33,829 nucleotides of DNA from a virus. Shown one piece after another: positions 28,589 to 33,028 of the stretch. How positions within the stretch are numbered: the first letter of the stretch is position 1; every line of letters starts with the position of its first letter. The stretch covers positions 1 through 33,829 of the IMG/VR virus record IMGVR_UViG_3300017971_000575, one strand, 5' to 3'. The notes under the pieces are model-generated. The model searched no databases. It was not told where the DNA came from and saw only the letters and a program-made list of their open reading frames with translations. Both the position numbers and the translations under genes were made by a program.

Positions 28589-28792
28589 TCAATCCTCGAT
28601 TATCAACGTACGGTACATCATTGGCACTTTGTTGATGTCATTGACGTCCATGGTCAAAACCCATCGTGTCTGCAATGGGTCCAGCCGTTCATTGACTGGC
28701 TTTGCGTGAAATTCTAGTCCCTCCATGACCAGACAGCATACTATGTCACACATGTTCTCTGACCGTATCAGTGTCTTATGCGGCTGCTCCAT
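28589..28792 (-). CDS. Unknown small protein, 67 aa
   Basis: Starts at ATG 28792 after AAGGAGCAAGTGAC. The protein begins MEQPHKTLIRSENMC and continues DIVCCLVMEGLEFHAKPVNE, RWVLTMDVNDINKVPMMYRT and LIIED. Strand-rich, no motif. It is the first gene after the 345-base noncoding stretch that carries tRNA-like structures, so it would be at the 5' end of any transcript cut at those structures. Confidence 0.55.
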   Translation of the reverse strand: MEQPHKTLIRSENMCDIVCCLVMEGLEFHAKPVNERLDPLQTRWVLTMDVNDINKVPMMYRTLIIED

Positions 28793-28823
28793 GTCACTTG
28801 CTCCTTGAAGTTTAGTGCTGCCC

Positions 28824-28908
28824 CGTTTATTCTCTCCCCGTAGGGTTGTAGGCGTGGACAGACTCTCAGTGACGCCTCGTTGTTCGGCCTAATGGCCTAC
28901 AATAAACG
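28824..28908 (-). ncRNA. Nested long-helix RNA structure next to tRNA-like element
   Basis: On the minus strand CGTTTATT (28908-28901) pairs with AATAAACG (28831-28824), and overlapping it TTGTAGGC (28902-28895) pairs with GCCTACAA (28853-28846). Together they give about 14 base pairs broken by a 14-base bulge on one side. The inside (28854-28894) can fold further. It begins right after the tRNA-like acceptor stem at 28911. The sequence GCTGCCCCG occurs at both 28908-28916 and 28817-28825, so the acceptor 3' strand is duplicated. No known RNA family is recognised. Confidence 0.5.
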
Positions 28909-28910
28909 CT

Positions 28911-29048
28911 GCCCCGGACAGGAGTCGAACCTGCTTCTGTACCGAATGGCCTGTTAGGCAAGCGTCCCCACCTAACCCTGGACGTATGTCACGTGCCACA
29001 GTCCCAGCGAGGGCTCGTATCGGCCGCATTCCACAATGCTACCGGGGC
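28911..29048 (-). ncRNA. tRNA-like element with about 70-nt insertion in anticodon loop
   Basis: Read on the minus strand, GCCCCGG (29048-29042) pairs with CCGGGGC (28917-28911) as a 7-bp acceptor stem. The T-arm is GCAGG-TTCGACT-CCTGT (28934-28918) with no bulge. After the 5' strand come T8-A9, a D-stem-like GCAT/ATGC with GG in the loop, one base, then GCCGA, which pairs with TCGGT (28945-28941) as an anticodon stem. Between the two halves of that stem lie about 70 bases that fold on their own instead of a 7-base loop. No CCA is encoded. It is either a tRNA interrupted by a very small insertion, or a tRNA-shaped RNA with another job. Confidence 0.5.
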
Positions 29049-29076: not shown

Positions 29077-29123
29077 GGGACACGGAGGGAATCGAACCCT
29101 CTCTGGTTTAGCCATTGTGTCCC
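29077..29123 (-). ncRNA. Shrunken tRNA-like element A (47 nt)
   Basis: On the minus strand: GGGACAC, then AATGGCTAAACCAGA, then T-arm GAGGG-TTCGATT-CCCTC, one bulged C, then GTGTCCC pairing with the start, followed by TTTT. The acceptor-like stem is 7 bp and the T-stem 5 bp, all Watson-Crick, with a canonical T-loop. The linker can form a tiny TGG-CTAAA-CCA hairpin. There is no D-arm and no normal anticodon arm. Acceptor plus T-arm is the known minimal substrate shape for RNase P. It lies between a 78-aa gene and the longer tRNA-like element. Confidence 0.62.
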
Positions 29124-29137
29124 ACTTTCAGGGGATG

Positions 29138-29374
29138 CTAAATCTCCACCCACTCCAACTTCTGTTTCTCGACGGTCAGGCCGAAGTTCCTGGCTGCAAT
29201 CTTGGGGCTTCTCGTAACCATGCAGTCATGAATCTTATGCAGGTATTGCACCATGGCGTCACCTGCACAGGTAGCCATGAACTTAACCCCGTTCACCTTG
29301 TACGGTTTCTTCTCTGCCGCGACTCGTCGCCCAGAGGGCATGCGGCGTTTTCGTATACAGCCATGCGGTGTCAT
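29138..29374 (-). CDS. Unknown small basic protein, 78 aa
   Basis: ATG 29374 has GAGGAGAGTGAC upstream. The N-terminus is very basic (CIRKRRMPSGRRVAAEKKP), followed by helical and strand segments (VKFMATCAGDAMVQYLHK, IHDCMVTRSPKIAARNFGL, VEKQKLEWVEI). No family is recognised. The gene ends 14 bases before the shrunken tRNA-like element A. Confidence 0.55.
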   Translation of the reverse strand: MTPHGCIRKRRMPSGRRVAAEKKPYKVNGVKFMATCAGDAMVQYLHKIHDCMVTRSPKIAARNFGLTVEKQKLEWVEI

Positions 29375-30412: not shown

Positions 30413-30625
30413 TTACTGATCTTCGAGCAGAGTGATCCGGCCCATGAGTAGAGCCTGTTCGAGCCCGAACACCTCGTTCTCCCCGCAGCATTCGCACGGG
30501 TAGTTCTCGGCATCGGGTTCACACCCTCCCCTGTACTCACCACAAGCGAGACAAATTCCCTCGTTCTCCATGCCGAACATATTCGCTTCGATCATGGATT
30601 GCGGAACCTCGTACACTTCCGGCAT
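30413..30625 (-). CDS. Conserved small zinc protein, 70 aa
   Basis: The protein starts MPEVYEVPQSMIEANMFG and carries ICLACGEYRGGCEPDAENY then PCECCGENEVFGLEQALLMG. The pattern CLACGE - EPDAxNYxCExCGExxVxGLEE is a small zinc protein that I recognise as common in phages and some bacteria. Four or more Cys in two CxxC pairs hold zinc. AAAGGG lies at good spacing before ATG 30625. The function is not established. It is followed by hairpins and preceded by the tRNA-like element B. Confidence 0.72.
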   Translation of the reverse strand: MPEVYEVPQSMIEANMFGMENEGICLACGEYRGGCEPDAENYPCECCGENEVFGLEQALLMGRITLLEDQ

Positions 30626-30655: not shown

Positions 30656-30717
30656 GTCCTCGTGCGGGGATCGAACCCGCCCAGCTAAGGCGTAGAAAGC
30701 TGTACCCATTCGAGGAC
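30656..30717 (-). ncRNA. Shrunken tRNA-like element B (62 nt)
   Basis: On the minus strand: GTCCTCG (30717-30711), then AATGGGTA, then a stem CAGCT/AGCTG with an 11-base loop, then T-arm GCGGG-TTCGATC-CCCGC, one bulged A, and CGAGGAC (30662-30656), followed by TTTCTTGG. Acceptor-like (7 bp) and T-stems (5 bp) are perfect. It looks like a D-armless tRNA; the loop centre reads CT-ACG-CC, so ACG could be an anticodon, though the loop is too long. No CCA is encoded. It lies between a membrane microprotein and the 70-aa zinc protein. Confidence 0.64.
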
Positions 30718-30751: not shown

Positions 30752-30835
30752 TCAGCACAGTGTGCAGTAGGCCAGCACCGTGAGCAGAATCACAGTGGGC
30801 CACTCTGATTCGAGAAATCGAGCGTACATACCCAT
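30752..30835 (-). CDS. 27-aa single-helix membrane microprotein
   Basis: A 27-codon frame starting MGMYARFLESEWP and ending TVILLTVLAYCTLC. The C-terminal half is one hydrophobic helix. TAGGAGATCACGCC lies before ATG 30835. It is isolated between tRNA-like elements B and C rather than overlapping neighbours, so if those are processing sites it would be cut out as a tiny mRNA. It is the third membrane microprotein of the leftward block. The function is unknown. Confidence 0.55.
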   Translation of the reverse strand: MGMYARFLESEWPTVILLTVLAYCTLC

Positions 30836-30866: not shown

Positions 30867-30908
30867 GCCCGTGGGCCGGAATCGAACCGGCCTGAACCAT
30901 TCACGGGC
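30867..30908 (-). ncRNA. Shrunken tRNA-like element C (42 nt)
   Basis: On the minus strand: GCCCGTG (30908-30902), then AATGGTTCAG, then T-arm GCCGG-TTCGATT-CCGGC, one bulged C, and CACGGGC (30873-30867), followed by TTCACG. It is the simplest of the three: a 7-bp acceptor-like stem stacked on a 5-bp T-arm with only 10 bases in place of the D- and anticodon arms. All pairs are Watson-Crick. It lies between the 70-aa gene at 30926 and the 27-aa microprotein. Confidence 0.64.
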
Positions 30909-30925: not shown

Positions 30926-31138
30926 CTACTCAGTGGCAGCGGGCGTGCTGGGGACCTGGATGTAGGCATTCAGGCCCACGATGATGGGGTGTCCCTTGTG
31001 CTGGGCCGCAGTGGCCTTATTCCCTCGGGACGAAGCGACGACGGTCGTCTTGCCCGTCTTACTCGGGGCCTCACTCAAGGGGCACGAGACCTGAAGCGTG
31101 GGCACACCATTCACCTTGGTAACTTTTGCGGTCATCAT
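30926..31138 (-). CDS. Conserved small phage protein, 70 aa
   Basis: The first gene of the leftward unit. ATG 31138 (next codon also ATG) has CAGGAG 7 bases upstream. The sequence TLQVSCPLSEAPSKTGKTTV, VASSRGNKATAAQHKGHPI and IVGLNAYI follows a pattern I remember in small phage and bacterial proteins (SxxGKxxVVASxxGN - GxPxxVGLNAYI). Beta-rich, no catalytic residues. As the promoter-proximal gene it is probably made early and in quantity. The function is unknown. Confidence 0.68.
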   Translation of the reverse strand: MMTAKVTKVNGVPTLQVSCPLSEAPSKTGKTTVVASSRGNKATAAQHKGHPIIVGLNAYIQVPSTPAATE

Positions 31139-31169
31139 AGTACATCTCCTGAAAGAGATTAGAGTGATA

Positions 31170-31186: not shown

Positions 31187-31687
31187 CAACTCAGATCAGG
31201 CTCGGGAATGAACCGAACCGTCCGATAACCGCACAGTCCGCAAATAGAAGATGGGCGATCCGTCGCCCCCATTCGTTCCGTCCCTACGCACACCACGCCT
31301 TGTAGAATCCAGTGCCGAATATTCGACGGTCCTCTTGCATGTGACGTCCGGGGGCCATTCTGACCCGACAGTCCGATAGCCTTGTGGATGCAGCACCCTC
31401 ACGGGCCGCTGATTCATCCAGGTTATCGGGCCTGAACGTCGTCTCTGTGGACCGTCTGATCCGAGACCGTTGGCGTGATCTGCTTCGTCTTGGACTGTTC
31501 ATTATAGGTCCTTTCGATAGCAGATTCTGGTTTTGGTATCCATCGGATACCCTGCCAACCACCAATTTGTCCGTCCGATAAGACGCGACTCCATTCTGAG
31601 AACACGTTATTGCCCCTATGGTCGTCCGTGCTCCGTGCGTGCGTTTGGTCGTCCGTGCGTCTGCCAGTCCCTTGTGCCGACACTTTA

Positions 31688-31716
31688 AGTATACACGATG
31701 AATAAACGCGTGCCAA
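31688..31716 (-). promoter_or_regulatory. Leftward sigma-70-type promoter
   Basis: On the minus strand TTGGCA (31716-31711), a 17-base spacer and TATACT (31693-31688) match the consensus -35 and -10 boxes with ideal spacing. It points into the leftward gene block, with the first gene starting about 540 bases downstream. GTCCGATAA copies lie downstream at 31573 and 31220 and TTATCGGAC lies upstream at 31782, so it may be controlled by the factor that binds those repeats. Confidence 0.6.
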
Positions 31717-31908
31717 CAACAAAAAGCCAAATTGACGCACAATTGTGCAAAATGGCCTTTAGCGTACCGTGGGCCGCATGATTATCGGACGGCAGGCTGA
31801 AGTTTTTCTGGAGCGTCCTATAAAGTAGAACGCGTGCGTAGGGCAGGGACTGTGATAGAATGGGGATAGCATGCCCATGGGGAGCGATGTTATCGGACGT
31901 GCGTCCCT

Positions 31909-32219
31909 GGTGGCAAGGGTGGCACTTTGGGCCGGAAGGGTGGCACAAGTATGGCAGGGAATCGGCGTTCCTGATCTGAAAACGGCAATCTGCCATACTT
32001 GCCATACTTTCCACCCTTATGAAAGAAGTATATAGAAGGGTGGCACGCAATTGTTGTCCTCGTGTGCGTGACTTGTGCGGAGGACCGTGTGGCGTGTACA
32101 CACAAGCCTTATAAGGGGTTTTTGGTAGGGTGGCAAGTATGGAAAGGGTGGCAGATCGTCGCAAGTCTAGGTCCGATAAGAACTTAGCGTGTGACGTCAA
32201 GTATGGCAGAAGGGTGGCA
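31909..32219. repeat. Iteron-like repeats GGGTGGCA and AAGTATGGCA
   Basis: GGGTGGCA occurs at 31917, 31938, 32038, 32128, 32146 and 32212, with GGTGGCA at 31909. AAGTATGGCAG occurs at 31947 and 32199, AAGTATGG at 32135, and inverted copies lie at 31990-32018, where two TGCCATACTT-type units and a CCACCC unit are joined. The cluster of about 310 bases, half direct and half inverted, sits between TTATCGGAC copies. It resembles iteron arrays at plasmid and phage origins or a multi-site operator. Confidence 0.72.
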
Positions 32220-32929
32220 GTAGGCAGGCAGCGTTATCGGACGTTGGTGCACAAGCCATGCAAATGAGGCCATGTTATCGGACTGATGGAGGTCTTAGCC
32301 CCTACCCTGTCCCTGTCCCTGTCTCCATACCATGGATATCAGTCTCCGACGGGGCTGATTATAGGACTCTGTCCCCATGGAGAGAGGCAGGTCCGATAAG
32401 ATCACGCCAGTCACGCCAGCAACGCCGGTATTATCGGACCACCGGGGGGTACCACCCTCGCTTTTCGCGGGCAGGAGTCCCATACCCCCTCTTAGACCCC
32501 GCCTATATGCCCCATTTTTGGGACTTGTGCGTAGTTTTGCGTAATTTGTGCCATTTTCCTGCAAAAAAGTGCCCCCATAACCCCCGGTCTAGCCAGCATT
32601 TACGAGCCTACGCGAAAATTGTTCCCACGAGAGGGCACCTGACGTTGGCAAATAGGTACACTCTGAGGGTTAAGTGGAAGGGAGTGGTGTTTTTGCAGTC
32701 ATCGGTCGCTCACGCAGCCGCGAGCAGGGCAACGCCACCCCTCACTGCCCCAAAGCGGGCTGGTATCATCGGGCGATACGTCATGAGCCCGGCTATTACG
32801 CACAACTGTGCACACCGAGCAGACCCCGGTGCACCGGAAATGACTCGGATGTTGTGCGAAGACTATCGGCGGGCGGGCCTGGACACGATACCTACGGGTC
32901 CCTCCAAACCCAGACCTTGCCCGCCACTT

Positions 32930-33003
32930 GGTCCCATAGCTCAGTTGGACGGAGCACCGGATTGTCGATCCGAAGGTCGCGGGTTCAAGTCCCGCTGGGG
33001 CCG
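32930..33003 (+). tRNA. tRNA-Asp(GTC)
   Basis: A complete 74-base cloverleaf: acceptor GGTCCCA/TGGGGCC (one G-T pair), D-arm GCTC/GAGC, anticodon stem CCGGA/TCCGA (outer pair mismatched) with loop TTGTCGA, so anticodon GTC, and T-arm GCGGG-TTCAAGT-CCCGC. The discriminator is G. CCA is not encoded. It is the first element of the rightward unit beyond the control region. Confidence 0.9.
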
Positions 33004-33011
33004 TTTGGGGT

Positions 33012-33028
33012 TGCGGTTCGAGTCCGCA
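33012..33028 (+). other. Isolated T-arm, probable tRNA remnant
   Basis: TGCGG-TTCGAGT-CCGCA is a perfect T-arm 8 bases after tRNA-Asp, but no 5' acceptor strand or anticodon arm matches it. It is followed by a CACGAG (33027-33032) ... CTCGTG (33060-33065) inverted repeat. It is most likely the remains of a third tRNA, or a T-arm-only element related to those on the minus strand. Confidence 0.45.

Follow-up and report, generated by a model that had tools for sequence, protein, structure and literature searches.

The window analysed here, a 33,829-nt stretch of viral DNA, carries on its minus strand a 138-nt element with the frame of a tRNA, and an 80-odd-base insert stands where the anticodon arm of this element should be (Table 1). 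The locus raises the question of whether the element is a tRNA gene with a small insertion of a new kind in its anticodon loop or an RNA that keeps the tRNA frame for another use.

Table 1. Positions of the tRNA-shaped elements and neighbouring ORFs in the window
Feature	Position	Strand	Details
tRNA-framed RNA, 138 nt	28911-29048	minus	Frame of acceptor, D-like hairpin and T-arm
Acceptor stem, 7 bp	29048-29042 with 28917-28911	minus	Part of the 138-nt element
D-like hairpin of the 138-nt element	29039-29026	minus	
Replaced anticodon arm of the 138-nt element	about 29025-28935	minus	
T-arm of the 138-nt element	28934-28918	minus	
Self-folding 74-nt insert	28946-29019	minus	Between the supposed anticodon-stem halves; fold -30.5 kcal/mol, z -2.2
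Mini tRNA-like element	29077-29123	minus	Acceptor GGGACAC/GTGTCCC; AATGG D-loop strand and small TGG/CCA hairpin
T-arm of the above		minus	GAGGG-TTCGATT-CCCTC, 1-nt bulge
Mini tRNA-like element	30656-30717	minus	Acceptor GTCCTCG/CGAGGAC; AATGG; 30-nt connector with possible hairpin
T-arm of the above		minus	GCGGG-TTCGATC-CCCGC, 1-nt bulge
Mini tRNA-like element	30867-30908	minus	Acceptor GCCCGTG/CACGGGC; AATGGTTCA; T-arm GCCGG-TTCGATT-CCGGC
ORF	30926-31153	minus	Stop codon 17 nt before element at 30908; start codon approximate
27-aa ORF (MGMYARFLESEWPTVILLTVLAYCTLC)	30752-30835	minus	Good ribosome-binding site; starts 31 nt after the 30867 element
70-aa ORF	30413-30625	minus	Starts 30 nt after element at 30656
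78-aa ORF	29138-29374	minus	Ribosome-binding site; stop codon 14 nt before element at 29123
67-aa ORF	28589-28792	minus	Ribosome-binding site; first gene after the 138-nt element; 118-nt gap

The 138-nt element and its sisters in the window

In minus-strand order, the 138-nt element consists of GCCCCGG, TA, the D-hairpin, a long middle, the T-arm, CCGGGGC and then A. The 7-bp acceptor stem, the D-stem-like hairpin and the full T-arm described in the sequence-only reading were all recovered on folding, with pair probabilities of 0.98 to 1.0 for the GCCCCGG/CCGGGGC acceptor, 0.95 to 0.99 for GCATT-GTGG-AATGC, in which the D-loop GG is present, and 0.92 to 0.99 for the GCAGG-TTCGACT-CCTGT T-arm. 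The whole element folded better than shuffled sequences (z -2.6), and so did the insert, which had been described as about 70 self-folding bases. The same reading had taken GCCGA and TCGGT as the two halves of an anticodon stem. Both sequences are present, but their pairing had a probability of 0.04, compared with 0.95 for a GGCC/GGCC stem in the same region. The best fold containing the proposed anticodon stem lay 2 kcal/mol above the fold with GGCC/GGCC. The canonical U33 is absent from the loop around the insert (TA...CAT). Because GCCGA/TCGGT is not the favoured pairing, the element is better read, on these folding predictions, as a tRNA-framed RNA in which the anticodon arm has been replaced, rather than as an intron-bearing tRNA.

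Neither ARAGORN nor Rfam called a tRNA at the 138-nt element. ARAGORN called tRNAs in the window at 32929 and 33088 only, and the tRNA (RF00005) cut-off of the Rfam scan was passed in the window only by the tRNA-Asp at 32930. The element has the RF00005-type frame of a 7-bp acceptor and a T-arm with a TTCRA loop, and both it and three short elements of the window lack an anticodon arm with a 7-nt loop. No homologue was found by DNA similarity of the region in annotated phages, and a D-arm-based search gave none that was convincing. Since, in addition, covariance models matched the T-arm only (E value of 0.045), the function of the element rests on its frame and its neighbours. The gap that follows it (28793 to 28910) contains an inverted repeat, TTGTAGGC...GCCTACAA, which may form another RNA structure.

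When T-arms were sought by their T-loop motif, the minus strand yielded four, each of which (4/4) had a perfect 7-bp acceptor partner upstream. The window thus holds four non-decoding tRNA-shaped RNAs on the same strand, one with an insert and three short ones (42 to 62 nt) that the sequence-only reading had overlooked. The short elements share the order acceptor, AATGG (a D-loop sequence), connecting sequence, T-arm, 1 nt and acceptor. Because a T-arm with an acceptor at distances of up to 200 nt had proved not rare by chance in an earlier, loose scan, a stricter test was made, which required a T-arm with a TTCGA loop and a 7-bp Watson-Crick acceptor. Under these strict criteria there were 4 matches in the window versus 0.003 expected, and the match bearing a D-hairpin was reproduced in 0/300 shuffles.

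All four elements sit between small same-strand ORFs. The stop of the 27-aa ORF is followed after 34 nt by the element at 30656 to 30717, and 28 nt separate the element at 29077 to 29123 from the 138-nt element. The 27-aa ORF, which lies between two mini elements, contains a hydrophobic stretch. Elsewhere in the window, a T-arm-like hairpin, TGCGG-TTCGAGT-CCGCA, was observed on the plus strand between tRNA-Asp and tRNA-Ser (33012 to 33028), without a 7-bp acceptor partner. The gene-poor region from 31220 to 32439 holds nine copies of TTATCGGAC on both strands, versus 0.2 expected, and this sequence is perhaps a binding site.

Short, armless and insert-bearing elements in other phages

Among the matches listed for AATGG followed by a T-arm in viral contigs, many had abutting acceptors. 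With a fixed pattern and no selection for the acceptor, 48 distinct places were found, 46 of which had 6 to 7 contiguous acceptor pairs, compared with 6.6% when the partners were shuffled. The viral-contig scans yielded at least 84 short elements, with the consensus [5-7 bp]-AAYGGTTNAT-[5 bp]-TTCGATT-[5 bp]-(N)-[5-7 bp] and a covariation score of 1.088 (0.187 when shuffled) among sequences selected to have 5 or more pairs. In this class the AATGGTTA strand matches the D-loop of common tRNAs, so the elbow-forming part is retained although there is no D-stem. In 57 of the 84 copies from other phages the acceptor is followed by N-C-[AGT]-A, a frequent but non-universal feature, and in one by NCCA. 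A short-class covariance model trained without the window matched the elements at 30867 to 30908 (48.3 bits, E value of 2e-12) and 29077 to 29123 (31.3 bits, E value of 4e-7), and matched those at 28911 to 29048 and 30656 to 30717 over the T-arm only. Under strict filters and without a positive control, neither 10 host genomes nor 387 genomes from two classes of bacteria gave a match to the model, weak evidence that the short class may be restricted to phages.

Single-protein searches for relatives of the window among viral contigs found none, and a DNA-polymerase alignment identified distant relatives in viral contigs with 34 to 43% identity. One of these (L012) carries a tRNA from which only the anticodon arm is missing, located a few nucleotides after a stop and 22 nt before the next ATG. 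The armless-tRNA pattern was present in at least 71 viral contigs, with 7/7 acceptor pairs in 46 and 6/7 in 8. The linkers are mostly 8 nt and keep a variable-loop-like sequence. At least 45 anticodon-armless elements were collected from the viral-contig scans, and in an alignment of 40 sequences, mostly from viral contigs, the acceptor cells paired in 98%, a value inflated by preselection for at least 6 acceptor pairs, which leaves the 46 of 71 unaffected. The covariation score of this alignment was 0.734, versus 0.154 when shuffled. Armless elements were not reported by ARAGORN, but the Rfam tRNA model does report many of them. Matches of the armless pattern in Bacteroidota were set aside, as they were mostly without acceptor pairing; D-arm plus T-arm tRNA-like sequences with little acceptor pairing were seen at Bacteroidota loci including L168, L172, L174 and L175. 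Several genome_contigs matches were also left out because their linkers contain N, which probably reflects gaps in true tRNAs. In the cultured Polaribacter phage Danklef_1, a "tRNA-OTHER" is a 58-nt armless element between two co-directional genes; unlike the 138-nt element it keeps a full D-arm and has no insert, and it is annotated only as an undetermined tRNA. Because the short sisters and the armless relatives have no anticodon arm at all, the common theme is loss or exchange of this arm rather than insertion into it.

A pattern with 48 to 78 nt between the D-arm and the T-arm was found in at least 112 distinct stretches, 77 of which had acceptor and T-arm pairing. The inserts include recurrent families, of which one has a hairpin followed by CAGCAA and another is built around CATGGTGAAGGACC, and many of these elements adjoin true tRNAs. 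The 138-nt element fits this class by its frame of acceptor, D-arm, T-arm and an insert replacing the anticodon arm, but its D-arm sequence differs from the search pattern. The known RNA closest to it in kind is the 139-nt RNA C (species 1 RNA) of T4, which likewise has a canonical T-arm (CCGGG-TTCGAAT-CCCGG) and other hairpins replacing the anticodon arm. In contrast to the window element, T4 RNA C has a weak acceptor stem and no evident D-arm, and it sits in a tRNA cluster, whereas the window elements lie in series between protein genes. Its record describes a small, stable RNA, with no function given.

Judged by these patterns, matching tRNA-shaped pieces are widespread in many unrelated bacterial viruses. 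The scans used fixed consensus letters, so the counts are minima and the classes may extend further; the contigs are often related, so the counts are not those of independent events. Several related observations were made in the same material. A viral contig (L490, positions 2375 to 2772) has a match to bacterial class A RNase P RNA (162.5 bits), around which lie about 20 tRNA matches and one insert-bearing element. N4-like and T4-like phages (L407, L408, L415, about 640 to 740) share a tRNA-like sequence in which a GCTGAMTGGTTT motif precedes the T-arm, and an unannotated end region of 1.2 kb in Lactococcus phage 63302 (L413) contains several tRNA-like sequences.

Placement between genes and behind GOLLD, ROOL and abiF RNA

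Short elements lay on the same strand as the gene upstream in 83% of cases and as the gene downstream in 90%, compared with 10% and 17% when the elements were flipped and about 50% for random positions. A stop within 60 nt together with a start within 120 nt was found for 32% of them, versus 0% when flipped and 2 to 5% at random positions; both sets of statistics rest on a home-made gene caller whose gene calls are approximate. In L293, L397 and L310, the order is gene, element, gene, with the element mostly 5 to 15 nt after the stop and the next ATG 34 to 66 nt on. Whole records with multiple copies hold up to 10 short elements, on one strand in each record. Depositor annotation of the cultured phage Predator, whose record contains three short elements, places stops 7 and 4 nt before elements and starts 27 and 42 nt after them, and that of the cultured phages Danklef_1 and FL-1 agrees with this placement too. 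Some short and some insert-bearing elements are located in tRNA or noncoding RNA arrays instead of between genes for proteins, a placement that would also suit a trans-acting role.

GOLLD and ROOL RNAs are known near tRNA islands (PMC12286853). In six contigs, several of which look related (L114, L287, L365, L368, L379 and L382), an element follows the 3' side of GOLLD at a distance of about 10 nt or less; tmRNA, GOLLD and tRNA arrays were seen together in the viral contigs L365, L368, L379 and L382. An armless element lies directly 3' of ROOL in L118 and likewise of abiF RNA in L109. In Streptococcus phage Javan565 (contig L358), it is an ordinary tRNA that lies directly 3' of GOLLD. Depending on the phage, the slot behind GOLLD is thus filled by a true tRNA or by an element of the armless or the short kind, and this interchange of three forms suggests that what they share is a use in processing rather than in decoding. 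Unlike these loci, the window had no Rfam match to GOLLD or ROOL.

Proposed processing of phage transcripts and the alternatives

We consider it reasonably likely that the elements are processing marks in phage transcripts, that is, non-decoding tRNA mimics in polycistronic RNA, and that they probably mark sites for host tRNA-processing enzymes to cut. The sequences show the structures, their common strand and their position between ORFs, along with covariation and wide occurrence of the classes in other phages. Cleavage, the enzyme responsible and the role of the released 138-nt RNA are what we infer. Upon transcription of the minus-strand operon, each element would fold into an acceptor/T-arm stack closed by a D-loop/T-loop elbow. 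Host RNase P would clamp the elbow and cut on the 5' side of the acceptor, with a 3' nuclease, RNase Z or exonucleases, perhaps processing the opposite side. In this way short elements would separate upstream from downstream messages and, in other phages, could trim an upstream structured RNA at its 3' end, while the 138-nt element would become a free small RNA with the insert in place of its anticodon arm. The idea of a tRNA-framed regulatory RNA, raised in the sequence-only reading, is close to this.

In mitochondria, tRNA-shaped marks punctuate polycistronic transcripts between genes, and the phage elements have a similar position in phage transcripts. The mitochondrial marks are working tRNAs, whereas the phage elements are non-decoding and their cutting is predicted. 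RNase P measures the acceptor/T-arm stack and the elbow irrespective of amino-acid identity (PMC4919913), and the elements keep these features, which the bacterial enzyme reads, and lose what it does not read. RNase P also cuts RNAs other than tRNAs, some tRNA-like and some not, namely phage C4 RNA, M3 RNA, T4 gene 32 mRNA and tmRNA (PMC11143913). The phage elements are here putative substrates, known from sequence. Against the processing reading, the acceptors of the window elements are followed by TTCA, TTTT, TTTC and AGCG, none of which fits the NC[AGT]A 3' end that many short-class copies have.

The array placement noted above bears on an alternative that we regard as unlikely, namely that the elements are trans-acting tRNA mimics or decoys which bind tRNA-handling proteins (modification enzymes, host-defence nucleases or ribosome partners) and have no role in cutting their own transcript. 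The insert-bearing class, with its recurring insert families, is often inside tRNA arrays, a few nucleotides from true tRNAs, the annotation of T4 RNA C as a small stable RNA is in keeping with such a role, and L304 (positions 930 to 1779) carries a run of six short elements, mostly with no called gene separating one from the next. However, strand-matched sites just after stops and directly 3' of GOLLD, ROOL and abiF RNA are not expected of a purely trans-acting RNA. The sites just after stop codons, and the hairpins that precede several elements, would also suit a 3'-end stabiliser or transcription-pausing structure, which would shield the upstream message from exonucleases or affect RNA polymerase without RNase P. 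This we find doubtful indeed, as any stable hairpin would suffice and there would be no reason to keep the TTCGA T-loop, the D-loop GG and the acceptor; moreover, scanning for terminator-like sites gave none at the window's short elements.

The option first proposed for the 138-nt element, a tRNA gene whose anticodon loop holds a small intron of a new kind, now seems very improbable. The GCCGA and TCGGT halves are there, and some insert-bearing elements of other phages retain 5-bp anticodon-stem complementarity, but the stem is not the favoured fold, the anticodon loop is unreadable, neither program called a tRNA, no RNA ligase or splicing endonuclease gene was recognised among the window ORFs tested, and the sister elements are without an anticodon arm. 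Phages often carry tRNA fragments, so the elements might be decayed tRNA genes or attachment-site remnants; this is hardly credible, being contradicted by paired, covarying acceptor stems, conserved linkers and many copies per genome on one strand.

Extending the processing reading beyond the window, we tentatively propose, with somewhat less than even confidence, that a purpose-made minimal tRNA mimic (acceptor, D-loop strand, T-arm and often a CCA-like end with the second C replaced) serves many phage lineages as a general RNase P mark in operons and behind large noncoding RNAs, and that these phages also use tRNA-framed small RNAs in which other RNA domains have taken the place of the anticodon arm. 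A literature search found no description of such tRNA-shaped elements as a class, and an earlier mention is possible. If this proposal is true, host tRNA-processing enzymes would divide many phage operons into individual messages, at structures which annotation software skips or labels "undetermined tRNA." It would explain the tRNAs that sit behind GOLLD, ROOL and similar RNAs, give a testable role to T4 RNA C as well as to the unusual tRNA-like genes that cultured phages carry, and provide compact natural RNase P marks for laboratory use.
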